From contig NZ_CP120683.1 of NCBI RefSeq assembly GCF_030506325.1, forward strand, positions 3,609,001 through 3,673,000: a DNA stretch of 64,000 bases, given 5' to 3'. Positions 5,629-23,937 of the stretch are shown here, piece by piece. Each line of letters begins with the position of its first letter. Positions within the stretch are counted from its first letter, which is position 1. The DNA is from Tunicatimonas pelagia (GTDB lineage: Bacteria; Bacteroidota; Bacteroidia; Cytophagales; Cyclobacteriaceae). A program made the position numbers and the translations under genes. The notes beneath the pieces are model-generated. The model was not told the origin of the DNA. It did not search any database and worked only from the letters and a program-made list of their open reading frames with translations.

Positions 5629-5630
5629 CG

Positions 5631-8006: not shown

Positions 8007-8054
8007 TGAAAATACAGTACTATTTTTTGAACTGCTGTTAAGAAGAGCTAGCCT

Positions 8055-9512
8055 ATGAGTGAGTTGACACTGAGAAGTAAGATATTAAGCGGAGTATTCT
8101 GGAATACGGTTCAGGTAGTTATTTATCGTTCCTTTTCATTTGTCATCAAGCTGGTGTTAGCCCGCCTGTTGTTTCCCGAACAGTTTGGTTTGGTAGGCAT
8201 GGCCTCGGTATTTATCAGTTTTATTGAGGTATTTAATGATATAGGAATAGCAGCGGCCTTAGTACAGAGAAAAGAAGAAGATTTAAGGGAAGCCCATTTT
8301 CATACCTCGTTTTGGTCGGGGGTTGTTTGGTCTATTAGTTTGTACATTTTCATTGCACTGGTGGTTGCTCCGCTAGCAGCAATTTTCTACGAAGAACCGC
8401 TGCTTAGGTCTATTATTCCGGTGTTGAGTATTGGAGTTTTATCCAGTCCGGTAAACTTGGTACATAAAGCCCAGCTAACCAAAGCGATGGACTTTAAGAA
8501 ACAAGCGTTTATTGAGAATGCAGCTCATATTTTTTCGGGGGTGTTATCGCTAATGCTGGCTTTTGCCGGAGCTGGGGTATGGGCCTTGGTATTTAATGCA
8601 GTAGCCTCCTTTTTAGTAGCCATGCCACTGTACTTTAGAGCTACCTCCTGGACACCCAAGTTGATATGGGAAAGAGAAGCGTTCAGTGATATTTTTGGTT
8701 TTGGCCTGTATACTACTGCCACTAATTTTTTCAATAATTTAATTAATAAGCTCGATTACTTATTAATTGGCAAGTTGGTATCCGCCTCAGCTTTAGGGGC
8801 TTACACCTTAGCTTTTATTTTAACTGACATTGTTAAAAATGAGCTAATGAACATTATGAACAAAGTAATGTACCCAGTGTATGGAACCGTACAAGATGAT
8901 CTAAAGTCGCTTAAAAGCTACTACGTTACTATTGTAAAGTATAACTCCTTGGTGGTGTATCCGATCATGCTGTTGTGGATAATAGAAGGAGAACCAATAC
9001 TACTTACTGTGTTTGGCGCAAAGTGGACTGAGGCCGTTATTCCTTTAAAACTATTAGCCGGTTCAGTGCTCTTTCATATGATGGTGAATAGTAATACTAC
9101 GCTGGTTCGGGGCATGGGAAAGGCTCGACTAGAGATGAAACTTCAATTTTGGAAAGCACTGCTGATGTACGCGCCTCTATTGAGTGCAGGAATCTACTTC
9201 TACGGAATTAACGGAGCGGCTATGGCCTTTCTAGTAATTAAGTTTCTGAGCGTTTTTATTGTGCAGGTTTATATGAAAATTCTGATTGACTACACATTTG
9301 CTGACTTATTTAGAGCCATGAAAGTTCCGGTAGTTGCTTCAGCAATTGCATCTTTAGTTGTATTGGGGCTTCACGCTGTTGCCAATGTACACTTTATTAT
9401 CTCTTCCGGTATTCTACTAATGATTTACACGCTTATTGTATATAAAATGATGGGGCAAGATATAGCTGTATTTGTCAAATCTTTAAAGAAAGAGAAAAAG
9501 CTGAAAACGTAG
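8055..9512 (+). CDS. Wzx-type polysaccharide flippase (MOP superfamily)
   Basis: The 485-residue protein is almost entirely membrane-embedded, with about 12-14 hydrophobic segments, and opens with the MOP/PST signature SGVFWNTVQVVIYRS followed by VLARLLFPEQFGLVGMA. It resembles the WzxC / lipopolysaccharide biosynthesis subgroup. Its role would be to flip the undecaprenyl-linked repeat unit across the inner membrane before polymerisation by the Wzy-like protein at 16030. It lies 48 bases after the Wzc-like gene in the same orientation. Confidence 0.93.
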   Translation: MSELTLRSKILSGVFWNTVQVVIYRSFSFVIKLVLARLLFPEQFGLVGMASVFISFIEVFNDIGIAAALVQRKEEDLREAHFHTSFWSGVVWSISLYIFIALVVAPLAAIFYEEPLLRSIIPVLSIGVLSSPVNLVHKAQLTKAMDFKKQAFIENAAHIFSGVLSLMLAFAGAGVWALVFNAVASFLVAMPLYFRATSWTPKLIWEREAFSDIFGFGLYTTATNFFNNLINKLDYLLIGKLVSASALGAYTLAFILTDIVKNELMNIMNKVMYPVYGTVQDDLKSLKSYYVTIVKYNSLVVYPIMLLWIIEGEPILLTVFGAKWTEAVIPLKLLAGSVLFHMMVNSNTTLVRGMGKARLEMKLQFWKALLMYAPLLSAGIYFYGINGAAMAFLVIKFLSVFIVQVYMKILIDYTFADLFRAMKVPVVASAIASLVVLGLHAVANVHFIISSGILLMIYTLIVYKMMGQDIAVFVKSLKKEKKLKT

Positions 9513-9618
9513 GTGAGCAGCACAGAAAATAAATGGATCTCGATTTTTAAGGGTGAGATAGGTGATTGACGTAAATGAGGGGGATGGGTTAACCATTATA
9601 AAATAGAGAATTTATACA

Positions 9619-10710
9619 ATGAGAAAGGCTATTAAACTTTTGCGTTCGTATGCTCGAGCCACTATATCCAAAATTCAACAGCTAATACTGTATGTTAGTG
9701 CTGGTTCAGGGTTACGCTCTTCGCTGTATTATATTGTAAATTCTGAGTTTTATCGAGAACACCGCGCAGTAATTCTGGGGCAATTACAATACAACGAAAA
9801 CATTCAACGTCCCTCTGGATCGGTGCCACTGTTAAGGCGAAATATACACCGTTTAGAAAAAGGGATGATTATGGTGCCTCGCCGCATTCCTTTTGGGGTT
9901 GACTATATTGGTGAAACGCTTGATGCTTACGAAAAGACGGTAAGTAGCCAGAATTTAAGAATAACAAATGAAGTGCTGTGGGCTCGTGATGTATTGATGT
10001 CTTATTTCTCAATATGTGGCAATTCAGCGGAGGTTAAACTATTCAAAGCTAAGTTTGATGCCTTGAGTCATCCGCAAGGAGATACTCCCGACGCTTTTTC
10101 AAAAATTGTGAAAGACCGTGTTCCTTACACTAAAAAATCACTGAATTCGTCGGGAATTACTCACGAGAAATTTCATGATCTCTGTATACAAAGAAGGTCA
10201 ACCCGATGGTTTGAAGAGCGCGAAGTAGACATATCTTTGATAGATAAAGCAATATCTTCTGCTAGTTTAGCTCCCTCAGCCTGTAATAGACAGCCCTATA
10301 AGTTTTTGGTATTTAATAAGCAAGAAGACGCAACGGCAGTTGCTGAGCTTGCGGGAGGAACAGGCGGGTTTGCTCACCAAATTCCGGCATTAATTGCCTT
10401 AATTGGTGATCTGTCAAACTATTTCCACGAACGCGATAGACACTTAATTTATATCGATGCGTCTTTGGCCGCCATGACGTTTATGCACGCAGCCGAAACG
10501 CTTGGTCTCAGTACTTGTCCTATTAACTGGAGTGATGTCGCTAAAAGAGAAAAAAGCTTTTATCAGCTTGTGCCTTCTGTTCCTAGGCATATGCGCCCTA
10601 TCATGCTAATTGCCGTTGGCTATGCAGATCAAGAATCTTTTATACCTTACTCATCGCGGAAAGAAATAGATTTGCTAAGAGTTCTGAACCCAGCGTTAGC
10701 AAAAACTTAG
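9619..10710 (+). CDS. Nitroreductase-family flavoprotein with N-terminal extension
   Basis: The 363-residue protein has a nitroreductase fold in its C-terminal half. The RRSTRWFEER motif (about residue 193) is the typical FMN phosphate-binding start, SLAPSACNRQPYKFLVF follows, and ASLAAMTFMHAAETLGLSTCPINW is the late FMN-binding helix. The first 180 residues form an extra domain (YREHRAVILGQLQ, HRLEKGMIMVPRR) that I recognise only as recurring with such proteins in polysaccharide clusters. Its position just before the FrhB-like iron-sulfur protein and a pyruvyl transferase suggests a redox step in sugar modification. The reaction is unknown. Confidence 0.85.
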   Translation: MRKAIKLLRSYARATISKIQQLILYVSAGSGLRSSLYYIVNSEFYREHRAVILGQLQYNENIQRPSGSVPLLRRNIHRLEKGMIMVPRRIPFGVDYIGETLDAYEKTVSSQNLRITNEVLWARDVLMSYFSICGNSAEVKLFKAKFDALSHPQGDTPDAFSKIVKDRVPYTKKSLNSSGITHEKFHDLCIQRRSTRWFEEREVDISLIDKAISSASLAPSACNRQPYKFLVFNKQEDATAVAELAGGTGGFAHQIPALIALIGDLSNYFHERDRHLIYIDASLAAMTFMHAAETLGLSTCPINWSDVAKREKSFYQLVPSVPRHMRPIMLIAVGYADQESFIPYSSRKEIDLLRVLNPALAKT

Positions 10711-10769
10711 AGACGACAGTAATATTTTTTTATTGAATCAAGCATACCAAATTAACAACACATTACAAG

Positions 10770-10898
10770 ATGAACACTTTAATAATCGGCGTAAATCTGA
10801 ATAGCAAAGGGGCACAACTAATGCTAATTCCAATTAGCTTGATTAACGCTATTAATGAAGTAGTATCATCTTCAGCTACTAAAAACAAACAAGCTTAA
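10770..10898 (+). pseudogene. N-terminal stub of a second polysaccharide pyruvyl transferase
   Basis: A 42-codon frame opens with ATG at 10770 and ends with TAA one base before the next gene. Its beginning, MNTLIIGVNLNSKGAQLML, matches the start of the intact pyruvyl transferase at 12372 (MTKILVVGGEFYNRGAELMI): a hydrophobic strand, a Gly turn, then a G-A-x-L-M block. Nothing of the remaining 350 residues is present; the frame ends in a Lys/Asn/Ser-rich tail. The simplest reading is the remnant of a deleted paralogue, though a real short peptide cannot be excluded. Confidence 0.55.
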
Positions 10899-10899
10899 A

Positions 10900-12288
10900 A
10901 TGAGTAATATATCGTCGCTAGAAGAGCAGGTAATAAAGAATGACTACTGCATTGGGTGTGGAGTATGTAGCCATGTAAACACTGACTATACTGTAGAAAT
11001 TGACCAGTATGGTATGTATAAAGCCAAATATTCTGGTAATGGCACACCACCGAAAGATGATCCAGCACTTGCTGTTTGCCCATTTTCTAATAAGGCTAAA
11101 AACGAGGATGAACTTGCTGATAAGTTATTTCAAAAAGCCAAAAAGAAGAATGAGTACATCGGGAAATATATTGCGAACTACGTAGGTTATGTGAAAGAAG
11201 GAGCCTTCCGAGAAAAAGGAAGTTCAGGTGGGTTTGGTAAGTGGATACTGAATGAACTACTTCGAGAAGATAAGGTAGACTATGTTGTTCAAGTAATCAG
11301 TAGCCAAAAGGAAGATACGCTATTCACTTTTCAAATCTTTACGAAGGAAGACAATATTTTGTCTGGTTCCAAATCAGCTTATTATCCTATCACATTAACT
11401 GACGCTCTTGACTTTATTAGAAAAAACGAGGGAAGATACGTTATCACTGCTGTCCCCTGCTTCAGTAAGGCAATCAGGAATCTATGTTTACAAGACAAAG
11501 TTATTAACGAACGGGTAAAATACGTTATTGGCATAATTTGCGGTCACTTAAAGTCTACCGCGTTTGCTGAACTTTTGGGATGGCAGCTAGGAGTTGAGCC
11601 TGATGACTTAGGTGGTATAGAGTTTCGAGACAAAATAGCAGGACTGCAAGCTAACGAAAAAGGAGTGTACGCTATTACAAAATCGGGGCAGTTGAGCGGG
11701 ATTAAGTCCTCGAAAAAAATGTTTGGTGGCGATTGGGGACACGGATTGTTTAAGTATAAAGCGTGCGATTATTGTGATGATATTGTTGGCGAAACAACTG
11801 ATGTTTCGGTAGGCGATGCCTGGTTAGAAGGATACATGGATGACCACAATGGTAATAATGTATTGGTCATTAGAAATGAAGAAATAGATAGTCTGATAAA
11901 AGAAGGTATTGCCCAAGGAAGACTGGCACTAAAAGAAGTTGAAGAAAGTATTGTGGTAGAGTCGCAATGGGGAGGAATAAAGCACCGAAGAGAAGGGCTT
12001 TCGTACCGGCTATTTCTAAAAAATAAGGATAACAGTTGGTATCCTAAGAAGAGAGTTGCACCAAGCAACAATATCAGTAATCAGAGAAAAAGGGTCTACG
12101 AAAACAGAGAGATAGTAAGAGATGCTTCTCACCAACTTTTTTTAAAAGCAAAAGAAAGAGGAAGCTGGCACTACTTTGTAAACTTAATGATGCCTTATAT
12201 TAAAAAGTTGAACTATGTTCCTCTCTATCTAAAAGTAGTTAACAAGGCACTTAGAACTAAAGAGAAGCTTTGGAGTAGTTCAAAATGA
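10900..12288 (+). CDS. FrhB-like (coenzyme F420 hydrogenase/dehydrogenase beta-type) iron-sulfur protein
   Basis: The 462-residue protein begins with a ferredoxin-like CxxCxxC motif (Cys17, Cys20, Cys23) and a further Cys-Pro (Cys60), enough for one [4Fe-4S] cluster. The FrhB/FdhB beta-subunit domain follows: GSSGGFGKWIL (about residue 107), the VITAVPCFSKAIRNL block, IGIICGHLKS and a late ACDYCDD pair (about residue 287). Despite the family name, in Bacteroidota such proteins sit in polysaccharide clusters next to pyruvyl transferases, as here. An electron-transfer role, possibly with the nitroreductase at 9619, is inference. Confidence 0.88.
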   Translation: MSNISSLEEQVIKNDYCIGCGVCSHVNTDYTVEIDQYGMYKAKYSGNGTPPKDDPALAVCPFSNKAKNEDELADKLFQKAKKKNEYIGKYIANYVGYVKEGAFREKGSSGGFGKWILNELLREDKVDYVVQVISSQKEDTLFTFQIFTKEDNILSGSKSAYYPITLTDALDFIRKNEGRYVITAVPCFSKAIRNLCLQDKVINERVKYVIGIICGHLKSTAFAELLGWQLGVEPDDLGGIEFRDKIAGLQANEKGVYAITKSGQLSGIKSSKKMFGGDWGHGLFKYKACDYCDDIVGETTDVSVGDAWLEGYMDDHNGNNVLVIRNEEIDSLIKEGIAQGRLALKEVEESIVVESQWGGIKHRREGLSYRLFLKNKDNSWYPKKRVAPSNNISNQRKRVYENREIVRDASHQLFLKAKERGSWHYFVNLMMPYIKKLNYVPLYLKVVNKALRTKEKLWSSSK

Positions 12289-12371
12289 TGGTAGCTACTT
12301 CTTGCCATAAGTCTTACTCAATTAATTGAATAGATTTTCCCTTATACGAACAACGGTAATAACTAATAATC

Positions 12372-13559
12372 ATGACGAAAATACTAGTAGTAGGCGGTGA
12401 GTTCTACAATAGAGGCGCAGAATTAATGATACACGCCGCTGGCGAGCAGATTGTTAAACACATTCCAGATGCCGAGTTGTATCTAAGCCCACTTCTGGCA
12501 AATGCTGAAAAGATTAATGCTGCTGGATATAAAGCAATTAACGCCCCTTTGTTTCACGTAGCATTCTGTCCGCAGCAGCAGTTTAATCTAACACTACTCT
12601 TCCCTGGGTTGGCTAAACAGTATCTTTCGTTCAAAAGAGGTATAGCTTTCTCAGGCAATACCACGCTCTCAGACATTGACGTAATCTTAGATATATCTGG
12701 GTACGTTTTTGCCGAAAAGTGGGGGATGAATCCAACGAATAATTTGCTCACTCTTCTAAAAAAGGTTAAGAAGAACAACACCAAATACATTTTTCTTCCT
12801 CAAGCATTTGGCCCGTTTAGCGAGCAGCAAGTACCACTTATAAAAGAGTGCTTTTCGCTATCAGACCTTGTAATTGCCAGAGAGAGTATGTCTTACCAAA
12901 ACGTGCTGAAAGTAGCTACCGATAAGAGCAAAGTGAAATTGTATCCGGACATAACGTTATCGTACAAATTTGAGCCAGTTAGGGAAGATGGAGATTATTG
13001 CTGTGTTGTGCCCAATGTTAGAATGCTAGATAAAGCCGGAGAGGAATGGCGCAAGCACTACGAAGATGTTCTGTTAAACGCTATAAACTGTCTGCTCGAT
13101 AATTCATCTTATAATATTAAGTTATTAAATCACTCTGCTCAAGGTGATGTAGAGTTGGTAAATAAGTTGTTTAACATTTACCGAGATAATCCTAGAGTTC
13201 TTAAAGTAGATGAAGATGACCCCAAGAAACTGAAGAAGATTATTGCGGGATCTTACCTTAATGTTGCTTCCAGATTCCACGCTATTGCATCATCTTTATC
13301 GTCATCGGTGCCCTGTATTATGACATCTTGGTCTCACAAATATCAAGAATTAGCCAAAGAATACGAAGTAAGCCGATATTGTATGGTTACGCCTACCCAA
13401 CCGGAAGTAGCTACTTTAATTAAAGAACTGCTAGATTCTCAGGAGAATAGTGCAGTAAGAGCAAGAATAGAAACAGTTAATAGCCAGATAAAAGGGAAAA
13501 ACAACGAAATGTGGGACGTAATTCGTGATACTTTGGCTATAAAGGCTAATTACGCTTAG
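12372..13559 (+). CDS. Polysaccharide pyruvyl transferase family protein
   Basis: The 395-residue protein has the CsaB/WcaK/ExoV-like architecture. The N-terminus is ILVVGGEFYNRGAELM, DVILDISGYVF lies near residue 105, YIFLPQAFGPF near residue 140 and LVIARESMSY near residue 168. The C-terminal half includes a late VASRFHAIASSLSSSVP block (about residue 300) with the conserved SxRxHxxI-type His. These enzymes transfer pyruvate ketals from phosphoenolpyruvate to sugars, giving an acidic exopolysaccharide. A truncated relative lies upstream at 10770. Confidence 0.93.
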   Translation: MTKILVVGGEFYNRGAELMIHAAGEQIVKHIPDAELYLSPLLANAEKINAAGYKAINAPLFHVAFCPQQQFNLTLLFPGLAKQYLSFKRGIAFSGNTTLSDIDVILDISGYVFAEKWGMNPTNNLLTLLKKVKKNNTKYIFLPQAFGPFSEQQVPLIKECFSLSDLVIARESMSYQNVLKVATDKSKVKLYPDITLSYKFEPVREDGDYCCVVPNVRMLDKAGEEWRKHYEDVLLNAINCLLDNSSYNIKLLNHSAQGDVELVNKLFNIYRDNPRVLKVDEDDPKKLKKIIAGSYLNVASRFHAIASSLSSSVPCIMTSWSHKYQELAKEYEVSRYCMVTPTQPEVATLIKELLDSQENSAVRARIETVNSQIKGKNNEMWDVIRDTLAIKANYA

Positions 13560-13607
13560 AAAGAGAGCGGAGAATAGAAACCCTCTATAACTTCAAAATC
13601 TAGTTTC

Positions 13608-14768
13608 GTGATACCAGCAATTGTCGTTGTTACCCATAGCCGAACAAACTCATTAAAGAGAATATTGTCCTCTCTAGCAAAATCAGTGTACCCTGCGGGC
13701 ATTCGCATACCGCTAATCATCAGTGTTGATGGAGGTTCGGAAAACAATCGCGAGATACTACACATTGCTACCGAATGTATTTGGGAACACGGCGAAAAGA
13801 AGATTATCGATCACCAAGAAAACCTAGGGCTAAGAAATCATATCATATCATGTGGCGACCTATCAGAAACGTACGGTGCCGTAATAGTGTTGGAAGACGA
13901 CTGTTACGTGAGTCGTAATTTTTACAACTACGCCCTACAGTCAGTAGAATTTTTTGATGAAGACGAAAACATCGCCAGTATAGCCCTATACTCTAATCGG
14001 ATCAATGAAAATGTGCTGCTTCCGTTTGAACCACTGTACGACGGCTACGATAACTACTTTATGCAGGTACCCTGCTCGTGGGGGCAAATATGGACTCAAC
14101 AGCAGTGGCGTTCGTTCAAATCATTTTACAACAAAGAACCGGTAATCAGCAGTAGTGATAATATTCCGGAGAGGATAAAAAAATGGTCGGAAAGCTCGTG
14201 GAAGAAGTATTTCTACAAATATCTGGTGGATGAAGAAAAGTTTGTCGCATACCCTATACTATCGCATTCAACCAACTTTGCCGATGCGGGCGAACATTTA
14301 CAGCAGGCTAACAGCTATTTTCAGGTGGGTTTAGAAACACTACCAGAGAGTTATACCTACAAACTTGTGGCACTAGATTACAGTGCTAATAAGTTTGATG
14401 CTTTCTCGGAGTACCATGCTTCTAACCTGTCTCAACTAGGTATAGCCGATGATGTAGAGCTTGATTTATACGGCTCAAAAAGGCTAGATTTGATTAATAA
14501 AACTTATGTGATATCATCTAAAGTCTGTAGAAAGCCGATACGTACTTATGGACTTGAACTAACGTGTTTATCACAAAATATTCGCGATGGTATTGAGGGA
14601 AACTTCTTTTCGTACGCACTAAAAACAGAATTTGAGAACAGTACCACTTTACCCAAGAGCAAGTCTAATGCTTTTGTCGAAAAAATGGTGCCCCTACCCT
14701 ATACGTTAGGCTCTTCTGCCGGAAAGCGGTGGTTTATCAATAAGTTGTTTCCTTTCGTTCGGTTGTAG
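13608..14768 (+). CDS. GT-A-fold glycosyltransferase (family 2 / GNT-I-like)
   Basis: Translation must start at the GTG at 13608, since the frame has a stop at 13575 and no ATG before the first core strand (IPAIVVVTHSRTNSLKRIL). The 386-residue protein has a GT-A nucleotide-sugar fold: the opening strand, a VDGG turn, and the acidic metal-binding motif VLEDDCYVS (about residue 95). A WGQIW block follows near residue 160. It resembles the second family-2-like protein at 17306, which shares the VIVLEDD motif and layout. The sugar transferred is not predictable. It lies 48 bases after the pyruvyl transferase. Confidence 0.85.
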   Translation: MIPAIVVVTHSRTNSLKRILSSLAKSVYPAGIRIPLIISVDGGSENNREILHIATECIWEHGEKKIIDHQENLGLRNHIISCGDLSETYGAVIVLEDDCYVSRNFYNYALQSVEFFDEDENIASIALYSNRINENVLLPFEPLYDGYDNYFMQVPCSWGQIWTQQQWRSFKSFYNKEPVISSSDNIPERIKKWSESSWKKYFYKYLVDEEKFVAYPILSHSTNFADAGEHLQQANSYFQVGLETLPESYTYKLVALDYSANKFDAFSEYHASNLSQLGIADDVELDLYGSKRLDLINKTYVISSKVCRKPIRTYGLELTCLSQNIRDGIEGNFFSYALKTEFENSTTLPKSKSNAFVEKMVPLPYTLGSSAGKRWFINKLFPFVRL

Positions 14769-14817
14769 AAACTAGCGTTGTTTTATCTCCTATTAGGCTA
14801 TCAATACTATTTAACTA

Positions 14818-15996
14818 GTGACAGAAAATAACAGCGATCGTACCCTAATTCTTGAGTCTGGTTTTACTGGCCATAGGGGGGAGTATATCTCTCATCTGAT
14901 GCGGTTCATTAACGATAATGCCAATTTGCACGATAAATATATATTCTTCCTAAATGAAAAAATAGTCCCGCTGTTAGGACAGTTAACTGAGTCGCCGAAC
15001 TACTTTATTGAATACGTTAACCCCACTGAAGCCCGATCTAACTTTATTAGCCAAAGCTTTTACGAATGGACACTCGTGGCTGAAAAGATAAGCCAAATTC
15101 GTAAGAATATTAATGAGATTATTTTCATGAGTGTGGATGAACACTTGATTTTACTTACTACCCGGCGTTTTAAAAAGTTCAACCTATCGGTGAAGGGCGT
15201 TTTGTTTCAACCCTACGTACACTATAAGAATTCAACCGATAAAAAAGGCCTTCTAAGAAACTACATTTCCCAAAAGTATGCTACTGCTTTGAATAAAAGC
15301 ATTAAGAAGCTTTTCATTCTGAATGATGAGAAAACAGTCTGCGAAATGAATAAAAGCATTAAACGCTGTTTTGCTTATTTACCCGACCCTATTGAAGATA
15401 AGCCAGTAAGTAGCGATGCCCTGGTGCATGATGAAATAATCGAGAAATTCTCATTACACGCTACAAAGAAGCATTTGCTAGTGTTCGGTATGATTGACGA
15501 ACGGAAAAATATCACCACCATTATTGATGCTCTGCGGTTGCTACCGAGCGAAATCAAAAAATCGGTACACCTGCTTATTATCGGCAGACTGGATGGAGCG
15601 GTTAAAAAGAAATACCAAGATCATATTCACCAGCACCAAGATGAGATAAATATTACCTTCAACGACCAATTTGCAACCAAAGGTGAAATGGAGGTTGTGT
15701 TTACGAATTGCCATATTGTGCTTATGCCGTATATTAATTTCTACAGCTCAAGTGGAATTTTAGGGCACGCAATTAAGCACCAAAAGAATGTTGTTGCCTC
15801 TAACCAAGGGTTAGTGGGCAGACTAGTAGCTGAGAAAAACCTCGGAATTGCGGTTAATCCTCTAGATCCTAAAGAAATAAAAGATGCTATTTGCCAATTG
15901 ATATACCAGCCGGAAAAGTACCAGTATCAAAGTGCGGAGTATTTACACGAATATAGCCCGGAGAATTTTTCCAGAGCTATTTTAACCGAAGAATAA
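14818..15996 (+). CDS. GT4-type glycosyltransferase
   Basis: A 392-residue protein starting at GTG 14818, with no closer ATG that keeps the first strand (TLILESGFTGHRGEYISHLM). The C-terminal half has the GT-B features of family 4: LLVFGMIDERKNITTIIDAL (about residue 220), LLIIGRLDG, and a late VLMPYINFYSSSGILGHAI block where the usual E-x7-E stretch is replaced by a Ser/Gly-rich one. No membrane segment is seen. It would act at the cytoplasmic face of the inner membrane on the lipid-linked repeat unit. Confidence 0.82.
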   Translation: MTENNSDRTLILESGFTGHRGEYISHLMRFINDNANLHDKYIFFLNEKIVPLLGQLTESPNYFIEYVNPTEARSNFISQSFYEWTLVAEKISQIRKNINEIIFMSVDEHLILLTTRRFKKFNLSVKGVLFQPYVHYKNSTDKKGLLRNYISQKYATALNKSIKKLFILNDEKTVCEMNKSIKRCFAYLPDPIEDKPVSSDALVHDEIIEKFSLHATKKHLLVFGMIDERKNITTIIDALRLLPSEIKKSVHLLIIGRLDGAVKKKYQDHIHQHQDEINITFNDQFATKGEMEVVFTNCHIVLMPYINFYSSSGILGHAIKHQKNVVASNQGLVGRLVAEKNLGIAVNPLDPKEIKDAICQLIYQPEKYQYQSAEYLHEYSPENFSRAILTEE

Positions 15997-16029
15997 TTAT
16001 AAAATTAGATTTATAGTTTATAAATTTAT

Positions 16030-17301
16030 GTGATTCAAAGTATGATAATGGGAATATCGTATAAGACATATAAAGAAAAATATCATTTTTCACTGAATCT
16101 ATATTCAATATTTTTAATCGTTACCTTTATTCCAGACATCGTAGGGATAAACAACTCTATAATAAAGTATCTTTTCTGGGTAGTACGATTATCGCTCGCC
16201 CTGTGGATTATCTACAAAGATTACCGCTCGGCCTTTCGGCTTAGCCTGTTTGAATTTTTGTTTGTTATTCTGGCCCTTATTTACACCACTAACCTGTTCA
16301 TTGATGTTTTCTTAGATCCTATTCCGGCTCTAAAGAATAGTGGTTTTACTGATTTTATCGGATTTTTTATTGGTATTATTCTCGCGCTTTCTTTTCGATA
16401 TGACTCCGCTTTTCATTCAGAAACTTCTTTCAAATTTTTTTGGGTAACCCTGACCTTCGGGTTGATAGTCGCTTACTTTTTAGCCATAGAAAATACGCAC
16501 CTCGATGTCTCCAATGTTCGGTACGATGCCAACTCTACGATTAACACCATCATGTACGGCCAAACCGGTTGCGCGCTTTCTCTAATCTCGTTATTTGGAT
16601 TTATTCACTATAAAAAAGCAACGCTTAAAATACTATTCGCCCTTACCTTTGTCGTTGGTCTTTTATCTATCGCCAAGGCCGGTTCCCGGTCGCCGGTAGT
16701 AGTGTTAGCGTTGGTCAGCATTTTTTATATGATCGCTAGGCTAGGAAAGGTAAAGGGCTTACTGATATTATCTGTTTTTGTCGGGTTAGTCCTCATCAAT
16801 ATCAAAGCCATTATCGGCTTACTAAGTAGTATGGGGAGCAGTTTAGCGGTACGTTTAACCAGCATGATTCAGGATAAAGAAACCAGTGGGCGGGATGTGA
16901 TATACGCTAACGCGCTGAGTATTATAGAAGAGTCGCCTATTTTTGGTTCTTACTATCTGATACCATCGGGAATAGGAGCTGGAGGGTACCCCCACAACTA
17001 CTTTTTAGAAGTTTTTATGACTACCGGTGCCTTAGGGGGAGTTATCTTTTTAGCATTAGTAATTTATAGCCTGTTTAAATCCTACAATCTGATAAGAGCG
17101 CAGCACTTTTCCAGTTGGATTGTGATTCTGTACTTACAAATACTGGTGTACGGCATGTTTTCTACCGGGCTTTACACCTCTCAAGACTTCTGGATATTAC
17201 TATTTTACACCGGATCTTTAAAAGTTAGCAGCTCGCTATCTACTAATACACTCCCCCAGAATAATAGATTGCCAGGTAGAATGCGGGTTCTGGCTAAATA
17301 A
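16030..17301 (+). CDS. O-antigen polymerase/ligase-like membrane protein (Wzy-type)
   Basis: The product is about 423 residues from the GTG at 16030; the ATG at 16042 is an equally plausible start and trims four residues. It is strongly hydrophobic, with about 10-12 membrane segments. The Wzy_C-type loop contains AKAGSRSPVVVLAL (about residue 217) and a second large loop with GSYYLIPSGIGAGGYPHNYFLE (about residue 305), resembling the HN-type motif of O-antigen ligase/polymerase proteins. It is the only polymerase candidate of the locus and would join repeat units on the periplasmic side after flipping by the Wzx protein. Confidence 0.85.
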   Translation: MIQSMIMGISYKTYKEKYHFSLNLYSIFLIVTFIPDIVGINNSIIKYLFWVVRLSLALWIIYKDYRSAFRLSLFEFLFVILALIYTTNLFIDVFLDPIPALKNSGFTDFIGFFIGIILALSFRYDSAFHSETSFKFFWVTLTFGLIVAYFLAIENTHLDVSNVRYDANSTINTIMYGQTGCALSLISLFGFIHYKKATLKILFALTFVVGLLSIAKAGSRSPVVVLALVSIFYMIARLGKVKGLLILSVFVGLVLINIKAIIGLLSSMGSSLAVRLTSMIQDKETSGRDVIYANALSIIEESPIFGSYYLIPSGIGAGGYPHNYFLEVFMTTGALGGVIFLALVIYSLFKSYNLIRAQHFSSWIVILYLQILVYGMFSTGLYTSQDFWILLFYTGSLKVSSSLSTNTLPQNNRLPGRMRVLAK

Positions 17302-17305
17302 TGTT

Positions 17306-18205
17306 ATGAACGCACCTATTGCCCTATTTGCCTATAAGCGACTAGATACACTGAAGCGGACTGTTTCGGCATTGCAGCAGAATGTGCTAGCTAGAGAGAG
17401 CGATTTATTCATCTTTTCTGATGCCGCTAAAACGCAGGCTGATGAGTTGGCTGTTAACAACATTCGCGATTTTTTGAAAACAATAGAGGGGTTCCGAAGC
17501 ATTCGTATTTCTGAGGCTAAAGCCAATCAAGGGTTAGCCAAATCAATTATTAGTGGAGCTACCGAAGTATTAAATAGCTACGACACGGTTATTGTGTTAG
17601 AAGATGATTTGGCTGTTTCGTCTAATTTCCTTTCGTTCATGAATCAGTGTCTATCCTTTTACAGCAACTACCCCGAAGTGCTCTCTGTATCTGGTTACAC
17701 CATGCCAATGGAGGTTCCCGAAGACTACTCCTACGATGTTTATGCTTTTCCTCGGGTAAGCTCCCACGGTTGGGCCACCTGGAAAAGTAAGTGGGTTGGC
17801 ATTGATTGGGAAATTAAGGATTTTGATAAGTTTAAACAGTCGGCAACCAACCGAAAGGACTTTAGATCGCACGGAAGTGATTTGTACCGAATGTTAAGTC
17901 GGCAAATGCAGGGAAAAATAGACTCCTGGGCTATTCGGTGGCAGTACCATTTATATAAGGAGAAGCTCTTTACAATTTATCCTACTATTTCGAAAGTTGA
18001 AAATATTGGCTTTGGTGCTGGTGCTACCCACACCACAGGCTTTGATCGCTTCACAACGAAGCTCGATAAAAGTGATAGCACCGCATTTCAATTGTTGCCT
18101 AACGTAGCGTCAAATAAAAAAATACATGAGCAGTTTATGGATTTCTACTCAGTAAAATCCCGGGGTATTGCCAAGCTGAAACAACTAATTGGAGTTCTCC
18201 GCTAA
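17306..18205 (+). CDS. GT-A-fold glycosyltransferase (family 2 / GNT-I-like)
   Basis: The 299-residue protein starts with APIALFAYKRLDTLKRTVSAL, a GT-A opening strand followed by the conserved KR(L)xTLxRT helix. It carries the acidic metal-binding motif VIVLEDDLAVS (about residue 96) and a SHGWATWKSKW block near residue 152. It is a shorter relative of the protein at 13608. Its start follows the polymerase stop by four bases, implying tight co-translation. The donor and acceptor sugars cannot be told from sequence. Confidence 0.87.
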   Translation: MNAPIALFAYKRLDTLKRTVSALQQNVLARESDLFIFSDAAKTQADELAVNNIRDFLKTIEGFRSIRISEAKANQGLAKSIISGATEVLNSYDTVIVLEDDLAVSSNFLSFMNQCLSFYSNYPEVLSVSGYTMPMEVPEDYSYDVYAFPRVSSHGWATWKSKWVGIDWEIKDFDKFKQSATNRKDFRSHGSDLYRMLSRQMQGKIDSWAIRWQYHLYKEKLFTIYPTISKVENIGFGAGATHTTGFDRFTTKLDKSDSTAFQLLPNVASNKKIHEQFMDFYSVKSRGIAKLKQLIGVLR

Positions 18206-18252
18206 TCTATTTTTAGAACGTATATTGCTATAAGACTTATCACACACTATAA

Positions 18253-19431
18253 ATGATAAAAAATGTTATAATCATTGATTTATTTATTGACAAAACTAGC
18301 CCCGCTGGAAGTTGCATACTGCAAGAAATTAAAGGTATTTCTAAAGATTATAATATAACTGTGCTATCAAGCCACTTAGCACTTGAAGATAGAGGTTATC
18401 TGGCTTTTCATAAAATAAAGCTACTTAGTCAACTGAATTTTCTAAGGTATTTGACTTTTTATTTTGCGGTAAAAATTAAAATGGTCAGTCTTTTAAAAAA
18501 AATGAGGCAGGAAGAAGGTAGTAAGACGATAGTGCAAGCAACCAGCGGGCAATACACTCAGTGTGATATATGCTACGCTCACTTCTGCCATACAGCTTAT
18601 CTAGCTAAGCACTGGCATAAAGTAAATGTAAGAGGCATTAGAAAATTCTTACGCAGATTAAACCATAAATTCAACGCCCAAAAAGAAAAGAAAGCATTCT
18701 CAAGTGCTAAACTTATTGTAGTGCCTTCGCAAGGATTGAAGAGAGAAATTCAGGAGTGTTACCCTAGCACAGCTAAGAAACTAATGGCAATTCCTAACCC
18801 GGTTGATACGAAGCGATTTAGTCGTGATGCCGAGGTGGGGCACAACCAGCGAAACGCACTGGGGTTCACCGAAGCAGATACCGTGATTGCCTTTGCTGCT
18901 CTGGGCGACTTTGAGCGTAAAGGGTTGGGACTATTGCTGGAAGCCTTGTCTTTGCTAAAGCGGGACGCGCCTCGCTACAAAATACTGGTGATTGGGGGGC
19001 GAGGCCCCGAGATTGCACTCTTTCAAAAGAAAGCCAGCCAACTAGGCGTGAGCGGTCAGGTGGTATTTGCTGGCTTTCAAAAAGATATTCGTCCCTACCT
19101 GTGGGCCGCCGATATGTTTTCGTTGCCCTCTATCTACGAAACATTTTCTTTGGTGTGTATGCAAGCTGCGGCGGCCCGATTGCCGTTATTGGTCACTAGC
19201 TTTAGCGGATCGGATGAGTACGTAGTTGATAGCGAGAATGGGTGGTTTATTGAGCGTTCGGCAACAGCCATTGCTGCTAAGCTACAGGACATTGATGCGA
19301 ATAAAACAATGCTGGAAGAAATGGGGGCGAATGCCGAAAAGACGGCTCATCGGTACAGTCAGGAAGTCTTCCAAGAACGATGGCGCAATCTATACCATAA
19401 CTTCACAGCGAGAAAAACCATAGCCAAGTAG
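18253..19431 (+). CDS. GT4 glycosyltransferase, tandem copy 1 of 3
   Basis: This 392-residue GT-B protein has an N-terminal acceptor domain with a Cys-rich block (CDICYAHFCHTAYL, about residue 97) and a C-terminal donor domain. The donor half contains GDFERKGLGLLLEAL (about residue 217), ILVIGGRGPE and YETFSLVCMQAAAA (about residue 296). In the last, the second Glu of the usual E-x7-E motif is Gln, as in all three copies. The DNA from 18820 to the end is identical to the same part of copy 2. The N-terminal half differs clearly from the other copies. It would act in the cytoplasm on lipid-linked glycan. Confidence 0.9.
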   Translation: MIKNVIIIDLFIDKTSPAGSCILQEIKGISKDYNITVLSSHLALEDRGYLAFHKIKLLSQLNFLRYLTFYFAVKIKMVSLLKKMRQEEGSKTIVQATSGQYTQCDICYAHFCHTAYLAKHWHKVNVRGIRKFLRRLNHKFNAQKEKKAFSSAKLIVVPSQGLKREIQECYPSTAKKLMAIPNPVDTKRFSRDAEVGHNQRNALGFTEADTVIAFAALGDFERKGLGLLLEALSLLKRDAPRYKILVIGGRGPEIALFQKKASQLGVSGQVVFAGFQKDIRPYLWAADMFSLPSIYETFSLVCMQAAAARLPLLVTSFSGSDEYVVDSENGWFIERSATAIAAKLQDIDANKTMLEEMGANAEKTAHRYSQEVFQERWRNLYHNFTARKTIAK

Positions 19432-19450
19432 ACGTAGTAGTAACAATGAA
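18820..19450 (+). repeat. Long exact direct repeat, unit 1 (donor-domain half plus spacer)
   Basis: These 631 bases are identical to 20007-20637, at an offset of exactly 1187 bases. They cover the C-terminal half of copy 1, its stop codon, the 14-base spacer and the first codons of copy 2. A third, slightly diverged version starts at 21194, offset 2374 (2 x 1187), and is near-identical up to about 21470. The absence of any indel over three copies points to recent tandem duplication or gene conversion. Confidence 0.97.
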
Positions 19451-20618
19451 CATTATCATCATCGACCTTTTCCTTAATAAAAACAGCCCGGTTGGAAGTT
19501 GTATCTTACAAGAGATTAAAGGTCTATCCAAAACGCATCAACTGACGATATTGTCAAGCCATTTGGAGGCCAAGGATCAAAACCACTTGGCCTTTCATAA
19601 GGTAAGGATGCCCAGCCAGCCAAATTTTTTGAGGTACTTTATGTTTTATTACCTAGTTAGAACAAAGATGTTTTTCTTACTCAAAAGGGTGAGGCAGTCA
19701 GCTAGTGAGAGAATAGTTGTTCAGGCGTCTGGTGGGCAATATACCGAGTGCGACATCTGTTATACCCAGTTCTGCCACGCTGCCTACCTTGAAGAGCACT
19801 GGCATAAAGTAGATGTCAAGGGGGTTAGAAAGCTTTTACGCAAACTAAACCATAGTTTTAACGCTCGGAAGGAAAAAAAGGCCTACCAAAATGCTAAAGT
19901 TATCGTAGTACCTTCGCAAGGATTGAAGAGAGAGCTTCAAGAGTATTATTCCGGTACCACTGAAAAGATAGTTGTGATTTCCAATCCGGTTGATACGAAG
20001 CGGTTCAGTCGTGATGCCGAGGTGGGGCACAACCAGCGAAACGCACTGGGGTTCACCGAAGCAGATACCGTGATTGCCTTTGCTGCTCTGGGCGACTTTG
20101 AGCGTAAAGGGTTGGGACTATTGCTGGAAGCCTTGTCTTTGCTAAAGCGGGACGCGCCTCGCTACAAAATACTGGTGATTGGGGGGCGAGGCCCCGAGAT
20201 TGCACTCTTTCAAAAGAAAGCCAGCCAACTAGGCGTGAGCGGTCAGGTGGTATTTGCTGGCTTTCAAAAAGATATTCGTCCCTACCTGTGGGCCGCCGAT
20301 ATGTTTTCGTTGCCCTCTATCTACGAAACATTTTCTTTGGTGTGTATGCAAGCTGCGGCGGCCCGATTGCCGTTATTGGTCACTAGCTTTAGCGGATCGG
20401 ATGAGTACGTAGTTGATAGCGAGAATGGGTGGTTTATTGAGCGTTCGGCAACAGCCATTGCTGCTAAGCTACAGGACATTGATGCGAATAAAACAATGCT
20501 GGAAGAAATGGGGGCGAATGCCGAAAAGACGGCTCATCGGTACAGTCAGGAAGTCTTCCAAGAACGATGGCGCAATCTATACCATAACTTCACAGCGAGA
20601 AAAACCATAGCCAAGTAG
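19446..20618 (+). CDS. GT4 glycosyltransferase, tandem copy 2 of 3
   Basis: The 390-residue protein has the same layout as copy 1: an acceptor-side half with CDICYTQFCHAAYL (about residue 100), then a donor half whose DNA is base-for-base the same as copy 1. Its start region (first about 90 bases) and the block around 19750-19860 are instead nearly identical to copy 3, while KVIVVPSQGLKRELQE is closer to copy 1. So identity switches partner along the gene. It is separated from copy 1 by 14 bases that are repeated between copies 2 and 3. The second Glu of E-x7-E is again Gln. Confidence 0.9.
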   Translation: MNIIIIDLFLNKNSPVGSCILQEIKGLSKTHQLTILSSHLEAKDQNHLAFHKVRMPSQPNFLRYFMFYYLVRTKMFFLLKRVRQSASERIVVQASGGQYTECDICYTQFCHAAYLEEHWHKVDVKGVRKLLRKLNHSFNARKEKKAYQNAKVIVVPSQGLKRELQEYYSGTTEKIVVISNPVDTKRFSRDAEVGHNQRNALGFTEADTVIAFAALGDFERKGLGLLLEALSLLKRDAPRYKILVIGGRGPEIALFQKKASQLGVSGQVVFAGFQKDIRPYLWAADMFSLPSIYETFSLVCMQAAAARLPLLVTSFSGSDEYVVDSENGWFIERSATAIAAKLQDIDANKTMLEEMGANAEKTAHRYSQEVFQERWRNLYHNFTARKTIAK

Positions 20619-20637
20619 ACGTAGTAGTAACAATGAA
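20007..20637 (+). repeat. Long exact direct repeat, unit 2
   Basis: Identical over 631 bases to 18820-19450. The exact match ends at base 6 of the following gene, where copy 2 has AAC and copy 3 has AAT for the second codon. Such repeats also make this locus prone to assembly collapse or unequal crossover. Confidence 0.97.
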
Positions 20638-21832
20638 TATTATCATCATCGACCTTTTCCTTAATAAAAACAGCCCGGTCGGAAGTTGTATCTTACAAGA
20701 GATTAAAGGTCTATCAAACACGCATCAACTAACCGTGCTATCGAGCCACTTAGCACTTGAAGACAAAAGTAGTGTAACTTTTCATAAAGTGAGTATACTC
20801 AGCCAGCCAAATTTTTTGAGGTACTTTATGTTCTATTACCTAGTTAAAATGAAAATGTCTTTTCTGCTAAAAAAAATGGCAAGGACAGGTAGCAAAAATG
20901 TGGTTATACAAGCAACTAGTGGTCAATACGCCACGTGCGACATCTGTCATACCCAGTTCTGCCACGCTGCCTACCTTGAAAAGCACTGGCATAAAGTAGA
21001 TGTCAAGGGGGTTAGAAAGCTTTTACGCAAACTAAATCACAGCTTCATTGCCCGAAAAGAGAAAAAAGCATTCTCAAGTGCTAAACTTATTGTAGTGCCT
21101 TCGCGGGACTTAAAAAATGAAATTAAAGAATATTATCCTAGCACAGCTAAGAAACTAGTAACTATCCCCAACCCGGTTGACACCAAGCGATTTAGTCGTG
21201 ATGCCGAGGTGGGGCACAACCAGCGAAACGCACTGGGGTTCACCGAAGCAGATACCGTGATTGCCTTTGCTGCTTTGGGCGACTTTGAGCGTAAAGGATT
21301 GGGACTGTTGCTGGAAGCCCTGTCTTTGCTAAAGCGGGACGCGCCTCGCTACAAAATACTGGTGATTGGGGGGCGAGGCCCCGAGATTGCACTCTTTCAA
21401 AAGAAAGCCAGCCAACTAGGCGTGAGCGGTCAGGTGGTATTTGCTGGCTTTCAAAAAGATATTCGTCCCTATTTTTGGGCTGCCGATATGTTTTCGTTGC
21501 CTTCTGTTTACGAAGCTTTCTCTTTGGTATGTATACAAGCTGCCGCTGCCAAGCTACCGTTGCTGGTTACTGATATTAGTGGGGTAAACGAATACGTAGT
21601 TGACAATGAGAATGGGTGGTTTGTGGAGCGTACAACAACGGCCATTGCTGCCAAGCTGAGGAAAATTGGCGCGGATAAGACGGTGATAGCAACCTTGGGG
21701 GCGAATGCCGAAAAGACGGCTCATCGGTACAGTCAGGAAGTTTTCCAAGAACGATGGCTGGAACTATACAGTACACTTGCAAAAAAGGAAGTTGTTGTCA
21801 ACATTAAAGAACTGCAAGAATCACTCATATAG
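20633..21832 (+). CDS. GT4 glycosyltransferase, tandem copy 3 of 3
   Basis: This 399-residue protein shares the family layout, with CDICHTQFCHAAYL near residue 102. The first part of the donor half (21194 to about 21470) differs from copies 1 and 2 by only a few silent bases. After that the sequence drifts (YEAFSLVCIQAAAAKLP instead of YETFSLVCMQAAAARLP), then returns to high identity around 21700-21750. The C-terminus is longer and distinct (KKEVVVNIKELQESLI). It is therefore the most diverged copy and may have a changed donor or acceptor preference. Confidence 0.9.
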   Translation: MNIIIIDLFLNKNSPVGSCILQEIKGLSNTHQLTVLSSHLALEDKSSVTFHKVSILSQPNFLRYFMFYYLVKMKMSFLLKKMARTGSKNVVIQATSGQYATCDICHTQFCHAAYLEKHWHKVDVKGVRKLLRKLNHSFIARKEKKAFSSAKLIVVPSRDLKNEIKEYYPSTAKKLVTIPNPVDTKRFSRDAEVGHNQRNALGFTEADTVIAFAALGDFERKGLGLLLEALSLLKRDAPRYKILVIGGRGPEIALFQKKASQLGVSGQVVFAGFQKDIRPYFWAADMFSLPSVYEAFSLVCIQAAAAKLPLLVTDISGVNEYVVDNENGWFVERTTTAIAAKLRKIGADKTVIATLGANAEKTAHRYSQEVFQERWLELYSTLAKKEVVVNIKELQESLI

Positions 21833-21873
21833 CTACTTTTTAATTATTGGCATAACCGCTCTGAACTTTTAGA

Positions 21874-22989
21874 ATGTTGAAACCGAAAATATTATTTATC
21901 CTGCATTATCCCCCTCCGGTGGTAGGAGCAGCTGTTGTGGGTCAATTCATTAAAGAAAGCTCAGCAATCAATACCAGCTTCGAGGCAGATTATATCAACT
22001 TAGCTACTGCCAGTGATTTAAGGCAGATTAATAAAGGGGGACTCGCCAAGATTGGGACTTTTTTCAAAATTCAGTGGAAAGTAATCAAAGCATTATTTGC
22101 CAAATCGTATGATTTGTGCTACCTGAGTTTTACTGCCAAAGGATTAGGCTTTTATAAGGACTTGGCGATAGTGTTAGTACTAAAGCTTTTCAGAAAAAGT
22201 GTGATTTATCATATGCACAACAAGGGTGTGCAACCAAATAGCAAAAATAAATTTAATGATTTCTGCTATCAGCTAGCGTTTAATAGTGCTAAGGTTATTC
22301 TATTATCTCCCCATTTGTACCAAGATATTGCCAAGTACGTGCCAGCCGATCGGGTGTTTTATTGCCCTAATGGTATACCGGCTACTCCGCAAGACAGCGA
22401 CCTCTCAAAGGAAAGGCAGGAGAGCGATACTGGTAAAATTCTCTTCTTATCTAATATGACGGTTGAGAAGGGGGCATACGTATTGTTAGAGGCCTGTAAA
22501 TTGCTTAAAGAGAAAGGTGCTATTTTCGAGTGTCATTTTGTGGGTGACTGGTTCGATATATCTGAGTCAGATTTTCAGCGCAAAATTGCCCTCTATGGCC
22601 TAGACACATGCGTTTTTGCTCACGGCAAAAAATATGGTGAAGAAAAAGAATATTTTCTGAGATCTGCTAATATCTTTGCCCTTCCAACATATTATCATAA
22701 CGAGTGTTTTCCCCTTGTACTCTTAGAAGCAATGAAGTATGCGTTACCCATTGTTTCTACCTCCGAAGGAGGCATTGCTGACATTGTTGTGGAAAACGAA
22801 ACCGGATTTATAGTGACTCAACAAGATGCAGCAGCTCTTGAGGAAAAGTTAGAAGCCCTGATTAACGCTCCGAAGCTACGTTCAACATTGGGGGTAGCGG
22901 GCAGGGAACGGTATGAGCGCCTATACACGTTAGATTCATTTGAAAAAAATATAACAAGAATACTAAAAACTGCCGTGCAGAAAGATTAA
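21874..22989 (+). CDS. GT4-type glycosyltransferase
   Basis: The 371-residue GT-B protein starts with ILFILHYPPPVVGAAVVGQF, the glycine/proline-rich acceptor-side loop of family 4. It has VIYHMHNKG near residue 109, ILFLSNMTVEKGAYVLLEAC near residue 190 and a full E-x7-E motif in NECFPLVLLEAMKYALP (about residue 284). Unlike the three tandem copies upstream it has no repeat relation to them and keeps the second Glu. It lies 41 bases after copy 3 in the same operon. Confidence 0.9.
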   Translation: MLKPKILFILHYPPPVVGAAVVGQFIKESSAINTSFEADYINLATASDLRQINKGGLAKIGTFFKIQWKVIKALFAKSYDLCYLSFTAKGLGFYKDLAIVLVLKLFRKSVIYHMHNKGVQPNSKNKFNDFCYQLAFNSAKVILLSPHLYQDIAKYVPADRVFYCPNGIPATPQDSDLSKERQESDTGKILFLSNMTVEKGAYVLLEACKLLKEKGAIFECHFVGDWFDISESDFQRKIALYGLDTCVFAHGKKYGEEKEYFLRSANIFALPTYYHNECFPLVLLEAMKYALPIVSTSEGGIADIVVENETGFIVTQQDAAALEEKLEALINAPKLRSTLGVAGRERYERLYTLDSFEKNITRILKTAVQKD

Positions 22990-23124
22990 ATCATCATATT
23001 CACGGCTACTACTTTATAATTATTTACTACCGATCGCTTATTCCTGCTTGTTAAGTTCATGTAAGGCTTATTGTTAAGGTGTACTACTAAAACTATTAGC
23101 AAACCCTAATCATTTTCTAGTACA

Positions 23125-23937
23125 ATGAATTTAAGCGCATTAAAGAGATTCTGGCTTTTAAATTTTTTGCGTAGGCTTGCCCAGGCCTCAACGTATTACA
23201 ATGGCAAATATCTCCAAATCTTATCGTGGGGCATAAAATCTAAAGAAGACACAAATTATACGTATCATATAAGTGATAAGAGCATCAATTATTTAGCGCA
23301 TATGATTGCGGTTGTTACCCGAGCAGATCATCAGCTGATAATGCGCTATATCGACGAAGCTAAAGGAGATACTGCTCTAAGAAGTTCAATTATTGAAACT
23401 ACCAAAAACTCTTCGTTCAAAAAATTTGCCGATTTGGAGGTGCGGTTGGGTAAACGCCTTGGCTGGTACGCTTTTGTGAGAGTGCTTAAACCCAAAGTGG
23501 TGGTAGAGACTGGGGTAGACAAAGGACTTGGGTCTGTAGTAATATGCGCTGCCCTACTAAAGAATCAGGAGGAGGGATACGGTGGCCAATACTACGGGAC
23601 CGATATTAACCCAAAAGCTGGTTACTTATTAACGGGCAAGTACCAAGAAGTTGGTAAAATTCTCTACGGTGATTCAATTAATAGCCTGTCTCAGTTTTCT
23701 GAGAAGATAGATCTATTTATTAATGATAGCGATCATTCTGCCGACTATGAATATCAGGAGTATCTGGTAATTAAGAAGTTGTTATCGGATAAAGCAGTTA
23801 TACTGGGCGACAACGCGCATGTAACCGATAAACTCTTAAGGTTCTCTAACGAAACTAGCCGTAAATTCTTATTCTTCAGAGAAGACCCCATTAACCATTG
23901 GTACCCGGGCGGCGGTATCGGAGTATCGTTCAAGTAA
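23125..23937 (+). CDS. Class I SAM-dependent methyltransferase-like protein
   Basis: The 270-residue protein has a methyltransferase core starting at about residue 125: KPKVVVETGVDKGLGS is the SAM-binding motif I (E/DxGxxxG), YYGTDINPKAG supplies the acidic residue at the end of strand 2, and KIDLFINDSDHSADYEYQEY is the post-motif with a conserved D-x-D-H. This layout recalls methyltransferase family 24 and cephalosporin-hydroxylase-like proteins found in polysaccharide clusters. It closes the forward operon and could O-methylate a sugar of the repeat. No membrane segment is evident. Confidence 0.78.
   Translation: MNLSALKRFWLLNFLRRLAQASTYYNGKYLQILSWGIKSKEDTNYTYHISDKSINYLAHMIAVVTRADHQLIMRYIDEAKGDTALRSSIIETTKNSSFKKFADLEVRLGKRLGWYAFVRVLKPKVVVETGVDKGLGSVVICAALLKNQEEGYGGQYYGTDINPKAGYLLTGKYQEVGKILYGDSINSLSQFSEKIDLFINDSDHSADYEYQEYLVIKKLLSDKAVILGDNAHVTDKLLRFSNETSRKFLFFREDPINHWYPGGGIGVSFK

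Follow-up and report, generated by a model that had tools for sequence, protein, structure and literature searches.

Old tandem GT4 glycosyltransferase genes with recently exchanged segments: probable concerted evolution in a bacterial polysaccharide gene cluster

Three neighbouring glycosyltransferase genes in the 64-kb window analysed here (the whole stretch of DNA, 64,000 nucleotides) are nearly identical in some blocks and strongly diverged in others, which raises the question of whether they arose by recent duplication or are old genes that have exchanged sequence. The genes, here termed w1 (copy 1, 18253-19431), w2 (copy 2, 19446-20618) and w3 (copy 3, 20633-21832), lie like every feature given below on the + strand and follow one another with a period of exactly 1187 bp without indels across the shared part, as the initial annotation had described and as ORF coordinates and alignment bear out. 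Every mosaic gene is an intact ORF, and each is predicted to code for an intact enzyme; no repeated 40-mers occur outside the three genes in the whole window. The explanation we favour with considerable confidence is that w1-w3 are old tandem GT4 (GT-B type) paralogues in a Wzx/Wzy-type cluster, undergoing concerted evolution by homologous recombination between neighbours.

The array is part of a polysaccharide gene cluster (4816-23937) recognised from annotated domains, with an order mostly conserved in congeners. The cluster comprises polysaccharide export (Poly_export/SLBB), Wzz/GNVR-AAA, flippase, nitroreductase, FrhB-like, pyruvyltransferase and glycosyltransferase functions, a Wzy-like O-antigen ligase domain, w1-w3, a further GT4 and a methyltransferase. 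In our reading it is of the Wzx/Wzy type, makes an exopolysaccharide or capsule, and belongs to a Bacteroidota species. The E-x7-E motif is common in the GT4 family and is not known to be a strict requirement. It is absent here, with E296-x7-Q304 in w1-w3 and in three congener homologues, so that the first Glu is kept and the second is Gln; GT4 membership thus rests on the profile match. Glycos_transf_1 scores 98-99 bits against a cut-off of 26.4 (copy 1, residues 200-363, E=8.4e-28; copy 3, E=3.8e-28), and Glyco_transf_4 (residues 105-188 of copy 1) scores 38-43 bits in copies 1 and 3 against a cut-off of 28.5. R222/K223 and E296 (copy 1 numbering) are invariant in all copies. An AlphaFold model built from a 3-row alignment of the window proteins only has a mean pLDDT of 36.7, too low for use in assessing the two Rossmann domains of a GT-B fold. 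The nearest solved GT4 relatives by profile are 3c4q/3c48, which we take to be MshA, RfaG/WaaG (2iv7, 8b5q), and 2jjm and 3mbo, presumably BshA-type (E 1.6e-15 to 3.4e-10); they match essentially the C-terminal part, and their substrates are not transferable to w1-w3.

The most extensive sharing is between copies 1 and 2, which have an identical C half. The two are identical across exactly 631 bases (18820-19450 and 20007-20637), reproducing the extent first reported, and beyond these the match is interrupted by lone mismatches at 19451 and 19493, both silent, before reaching 19528 and 20715. The resulting conversion tract, T1, has an upstream member at 18820-19528 and a downstream partner at 20007-20715, with 2 mismatches in 709 bp. 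It starts at the junction of the N and C domains (residue ~190; Glyco_transf_4 ends at 188 and Glycos_transf_1 begins at 200), and its upstream member spans the C half and stop codon of copy 1, the 14-bp spacer and the first 27 codons of copy 2. The proposed homogenisation of a donor domain therefore holds for where the tract begins but not for where it ends: because T1 crosses a stop codon and spacer into the first 27 codons of the next gene, it is not a donor-domain unit.

Copy 3 participates less completely. The matches that had been noted from 21194 to about 21470 and near 21700 resolve into tract T2 (21185-21471), which differs from 18811-19097 in copy 1 at 4 of its 287 bp and is shared with copy 2 from 21194, and tract T3 (21696-21741), whose 46 bp are identical to 19322-19367 and 20509-20554. 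Copy 3 retains its own subtype sequence at its C-terminus and around the E-x7-Q donor loop, and its C2 region differs from that of copies 1 and 2. The donor half described as identical in all three genes is thus identical in copies 1 and 2 only, with about half of the C half of copy 3 in common.

Sharing among the N halves is patchier and its partners change along the gene. At the gene start, identity between copies 2 and 3 reaches 96-98%, so that the 5' end of copy 2 is copy 3-like, and the two share a further patch of 88 bp with 1 mismatch (19762-19849 and 20949-21036). Copies 1 and 3 share 40 bp exactly (18691-18730 and 21065-21104; AFSSAKLIVVPS), and copies 1 and 2 share 23 bp exactly (18724-18746 and 19911-19933; VPSQGLKRE). 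Along the array, blocks of 97-100% identity are interleaved with blocks of 40-60%. In a GENECONV-like permutation the longest run between copies 1 and 2 covered 275 polymorphic sites, with 0/2000 shuffles as long, and the runs for copies 1/3 and 2/3 covered 67 polymorphic sites (0/2000 each); identity tracts between these paralogues are thus longer than expected. When the test was confined to the N half, the longest runs in common gave P=0.0006 (1/2), P=0.0002 (1/3) and 0/5000 (2/3), and runs tests for partner switching gave P=0.018, 0.0009 and 0/20000. The initial reading of mosaic gene conversion with changing N-half partners is upheld by these tests, and the partner switching is significant.

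Copy number varies among relatives, at 3 (as assembled here), 2, 1 and 0 across four congeners with the source strain included; three congeners were comparable, and the two of these with the gene are fragmented draft assemblies. One congener (G001) carries two copies, a1 and a2, in the same cluster; their starts are 1187 bp apart and the spacer between them is 14 bp long. Homogenisation by species is strongest in the C1 segment, both in the w copies and in G001, and this segment groups by species in both genomes (neighbour-joining bootstrap 99% for a1+a2 and 100% for the w copies versus a1/a2/b1). The C-terminal third of w3 is of the a2 subtype (52 a2-like versus 23 a1-like sites, P=0.001), and therefore the subtypes existed before the species separated. 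The N half of w2 has several residue motifs in common with a1. Since N1 site counts do not pair w2 cleanly with a1, or w3 with a2, as orthologues, the ancestral array may have had either 2 or 3 copies.

One alternative proposes a selective cause for the conversion and is compatible with our preferred explanation: selection may maintain an array with a constant donor part and variable acceptor parts, in which recurrent conversion of the donor segment would allow several enzymes to add one sugar at consecutive sites along a surface polysaccharide. Such an arrangement would resemble vertebrate UGT1, where tandem variable N-terminal acceptor-binding parts are combined with an identical C-terminal donor-binding part (PMC1885805). 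This likeness is an analogy only, as UGT1 shares one constant exon set by splicing and conversion is rare (PMC1885805), whereas w1-w3 are complete separate genes with DNA conversion that is incomplete for copy 3. The start of T1 at the domain junction and the homogenisation of C1 while N halves stay distinct agree with selection of this kind, but T1 continues past the spacer, conversion patches occur in the N halves too, the C2 region of copy 3 is different, and the higher nucleotide conservation of the C regions may simply favour recombination. On balance we regard it as unlikely.

Divergence at synonymous sites speaks to the age of the array. These sites are near saturation in the N halves (pS 0.60-0.79), where divergence within the source genome is about equal to that between species, while in the shared C tract pS is 0 for copies 1/2 and 0.07 for copies 1/3; this contrast implies that tract identity does not come from purifying selection on the protein. 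In T2, pS is 0.07 and pN is 0; the T2 event is older than the T1 event. As in concerted evolution, synonymous divergence is close to zero within the tracts and high beyond them, and the duplication is older than the homogenisation, with paralogues in the congener and similarity in tracts greater within the genome than between orthologues. A recent tandem triplication followed by fast divergence of the acceptor half under positive selection could account for the exact period and the identical C half of copies 1 and 2, but it is very improbable. The equal period and spacer of the congener pair, together with near-saturated synonymous sites in the N halves, argue that the array did not arise by recent triplication, contrary to the duplication initially proposed, and point mutation cannot produce blocks of 97-100% identity alternating with blocks of 40-60%. 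Average pairwise dN/dS in the N halves was about 0.1-0.2 in the estimable pairs, many being saturated, and pairwise dN/dS gave no sign of positive selection within that limit. The N halves thus appear to be under average purifying selection where it can be measured; they do differ, but the acceptor diversification that had been suggested is not borne out as positive selection. We conclude that w1-w3 are probably old paralogues that have been partly overwritten recently, with the N half of w1 an old, distinct paralogue.

A programmed or high-frequency diversification cassette, resembling phase variation, would be in keeping with mosaic N halves and variable copy number, yet we find it highly unlikely. 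A DNA search of the 7.29-Mb own genome revealed no silent or dispersed copies (off-locus matches were short and at chance level, E 0.14 or worse), there is no recombinase or invertase among the annotated neighbours, and all mosaic genes are intact. What is seen instead of the recombination cassette first envisaged is copy-number variation between species, and nothing backs the cassette idea beyond ordinary homologous recombination. No homologues outside the genus were detected in 391 family genomes (E<=1e-80) or 390 order genomes (profile, E<=1e-45), nor N-half homologues in 395 class genomes (E<=1e-10), thresholds at which distant GT4 relatives would be missed; a genome_contigs scan returned distant GT4s only, at 26-30% identity. 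A collapsed or chimeric repeat is equally hard to credit: near-identical 709-bp stretches are difficult for short reads, but the N halves of the three copies differ, the genome assembly has 4 contigs, one of which holds 7.17 Mb, and the congener has an independent, equally spaced tandem pair.

Under concerted evolution of old paralogues, neighbours would exchange by homologous recombination, including gene conversion and unequal exchange, two processes that one genome cannot separate. In the latest event, one contiguous segment of ~709 bp (C half, spacer and start of the next gene) would have been copied between the copy 1-copy 2 and copy 2-copy 3 junctions, in a direction that we can only infer; older, shorter events would account for the mosaic state of copy 3 and of the N halves. 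The process is ordinary gene conversion between tandem copies, of a known kind, and not a special switching device. A clean origin by unequal crossover (w1=A, w2=B/A, w3=B) was also considered and rejected, as the N half of w2 is not B-like throughout and that of w1 is near neither. Judging from the shared C half, the nucleotide sugar is very probably the same for copies 1 and 2, and their acceptors may differ; copy 3 may or may not share their donor. A role in polysaccharide structure is presumed.

Comparable exchange is known elsewhere. In PKS/NRPS domains of bacterial biosynthetic clusters, internal recombination homogenises paralogous domains in one cluster, as in w1-w3, with cluster-specific branching and rates differing by domain (PMC4256081); those domains belong to modules of large multidomain synthases, whereas w1-w3 are stand-alone GT4 genes of a polysaccharide cluster. 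The pglG-pglH genes of the Neisseria pgl locus are likewise adjacent glycosyltransferase genes with strain-variable presence in a glycan locus, and recombination within pgl genes alters glycans, but phase-variable tracts and horizontal transfer are further sources of diversity at that locus (PMC11130364, PMC6959607). The donor switch between pglH and pglH2 is a single amino-acid change (PMC11130364, PMC6959607), and caution is therefore required in inferring a donor from domain similarity. In the open-licence literature we found no direct precedent for tandem exopolysaccharide GT4 genes undergoing gene conversion.

The w1-w3 array provides a clean, measurable case of sequence exchange among tandem glycosyltransferases in a polysaccharide cluster. 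Identical halves need not signal recent duplication, and glycosyltransferase orthology between strains can shift partway through one gene. Should copies 1 and 2 turn out to take the same donor but different acceptors, these natural chimeras would help to assign the residues that determine acceptor specificity in GT4 enzymes.

The polysaccharide gene cluster at 4816-23937 encodes an export protein, a Wzz-like AAA protein, a flippase, a nitroreductase, an FrhB-like protein, a pyruvyltransferase, several glycosyltransferases and a Wzy-type protein, a gene content that marks it as being of the Wzx/Wzy type. The window also holds a GldB homologue, which points to Bacteroidota. The cluster has a modular make-up. 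In both congeners, the stretch between the gene for a 299-residue protein (17306-18205 in the window) and the GT4 array contains a second flippase-like gene and a glycosyltransferase, to which genome G001 alone adds a sulfotransferase-like gene. These extra genes lie directly upstream of the array (L009:4702-8267, and on the reverse strand of L010, the locus of genome G003) and are absent from the window, where a 47-bp gap (18205-18253) is found instead. The ORFs of the G003 cluster yielded no counterpart of the window's FrhB/FdhB-like gene (10900-12288), a further sign of gene turnover. Promoter- and terminator-like sites showed no excess around the array in a scan confined to sigma-70 sites, which are not the usual Bacteroidota type.

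The array comprises three consecutive GT4 ORFs, w1 (18253-19431), w2 (19446-20618) and w3 (20633-21832), which repeat, as the initial annotation described, with a period of 1187 bp and no indels over the shared part. The 631 identical bases reported for the first two copies are exact (18820-19450 and 20007-20637), and the match extends to 19528 and 20715 if a mismatch is tolerated at 19451 and another at 19493, neither of which, on inspection of the codons, changes the residue. The resulting tract of 709 bp runs past the stop codon and across the 14-bp spacer, and takes in 27 codons at the start of the following gene. The third copy has 21185-21471 in common with w1, with 4 mismatches, and a second, exact stretch at 21696-21741. 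Across the 64-kb window, repeated 40-mers are confined to these tracts and to short N-half patches of the three copies.

A GENECONV-like permutation test was applied to 582 gap-free polymorphic sites in six genes (the window copies and three congener homologues; 2000 shuffles), with P values here and in the runs tests given per pair, uncorrected for 15 pairs in all. The longest shared run covered 275 sites for w1/w2 and 67 sites each for w1/w3 and w2/w3, lengths equalled in 0/2000 shuffles in each case. For the N half only, with the first 90 bp left out, the longest runs gave P=0.0006 (w1/w2), P=0.0002 (w1/w3) and 0/5000 (w2/w3); at third positions only, w2/w3 and w1/w3 were significant and w1/w2 was not. 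Runs tests likewise found partner switching along the N halves to be non-random (P=0.018, 0.0009 and 0/20000). The alternation of partners first noticed by reading the sequence is therefore real.

Among the three congeners searched, G001 carries two tandem copies (a1 and a2), G003 one (b1) and G002 none, and at the limits used members were found in the genus only, with no match in genomes of the family, order or class. In G001 the second copy likewise starts 1187 bp after the first, with a spacer of 14 bp; the pair lies in the same cluster, and the same GT4 gene comes next. The exact period is therefore an inherited gene length and no sign of recent triplication. The recent duplication first proposed for the array is not supported, given the identical spacing in G001 and near-saturated N halves. 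Within the window genome, pS between N halves is 0.60-0.79, synonymous sites being near-saturated and about as divergent as between species; in the shared C tract it is 0 for w1/w2 and 0.07 for w1/w3. Constraint on the protein sequence cannot hold synonymous change at zero beside saturated stretches; DNA transfer can. The event behind the 709-bp tract is recent and that at 21185-21471 in w3 is older.

The a1 and a2 genes differ at diagnostic places, and the last third of w3 is a2-like (52 versus 23 sites, P=0.001; 20 versus 4 residues, P=0.0015), so the split between these subtypes is older than the species. By eye, the a1-type N-half motifs ASGGQYT, AYQNAK and VPSQGLK occur in w2 and b1, and the a2-type motifs ATSGQYA, AFSxAK and VPSRDL in w3, the N-half site counts not being significant. 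The surroundings of the catalytic loop, a region expected from other GT4 enzymes to contact the donor sugar, are a1-type in w1, w2 and a1 (YETFSLV..SFSG.DEYV; b1 is similar) and a2-type in w3 and a2 (YEAFSLV..ISGVNEYV). Since w3 differs here, the identical donor half once ascribed to all three copies is shared by w1 and w2 only. In w1, w2 and w3, as in a1, a2 and b1, E-x7-Q (E296-Q304 in copy 1) takes the place of the canonical GT4 E-x7-E. The b1 gene (16445-17593 of the reversed L010 locus, reverse strand) resembles an a1/a2 fusion, and its stop codon falls a few residues short of the usual C-terminus. It looks a1-like mid-gene and a2-like at the end by a weak test in a draft genome of about 530 contigs, a mosaic that would fit deletion through unequal exchange of an a1-a2 pair.

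A neighbour-joining tree of the segment 18820-19100 unites the three window copies (100% bootstrap) and pairs a1 with a2 (99%), a grouping by species although the last third dates the subtypes before the species. Synonymous divergence between a1 and a2 is also lowest in this segment (0.49 versus 0.64 and 0.69), and on both grounds its homogenisation seems to have occurred independently in two species. This could reflect selection for a shared nucleotide-binding half, or the segment could be homogenised simply because it recombines best. GC3 of the homogenised window tract (18820-19431, 20007-20618) is about 48-57%, compared with about 35-46% in most other cluster genes and 38-48% in the same segments of the congeners; in this small sample, GC-biased conversion is a possible cause. 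The N half of copy 1 has a GC3 of about 23-36% versus about 48-57% in the homogenised C half, for which GC-biased conversion or separate origins of the halves are possible reasons.

The tracts, their limits, their relative ages and the copy-number differences are matters of observation, and the best supported mechanism is homologous recombination between tandem paralogues. Non-reciprocal transfer would move tracts ranging from tens of bases up to ~700 bp between copies, and now and then an unequal exchange would alter copy number. In GT4 enzymes, which have the GT-B fold, the N-domain binds mainly the acceptor and the C-domain the donor. From the kept domains, R222/K223 and E296, all three enzymes are predicted to be active, and w1 and w2 probably use the same donor and may differ in acceptor. 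A single residue changes the donor between Neisseria PglH and PglH2 (PMC11130364), so the near-identity of w3 to w1 and w2 is no proof of a common donor. A variable-acceptor/constant-donor organisation exists in UGT1, through splicing (PMC1885805); among the open-licence papers searched, none was found to report this pattern in tandem GT4 genes from an exopolysaccharide cluster. Concerted evolution within bacterial biosynthetic clusters is already known (PMC4256081), and the array belongs to this kind of process.
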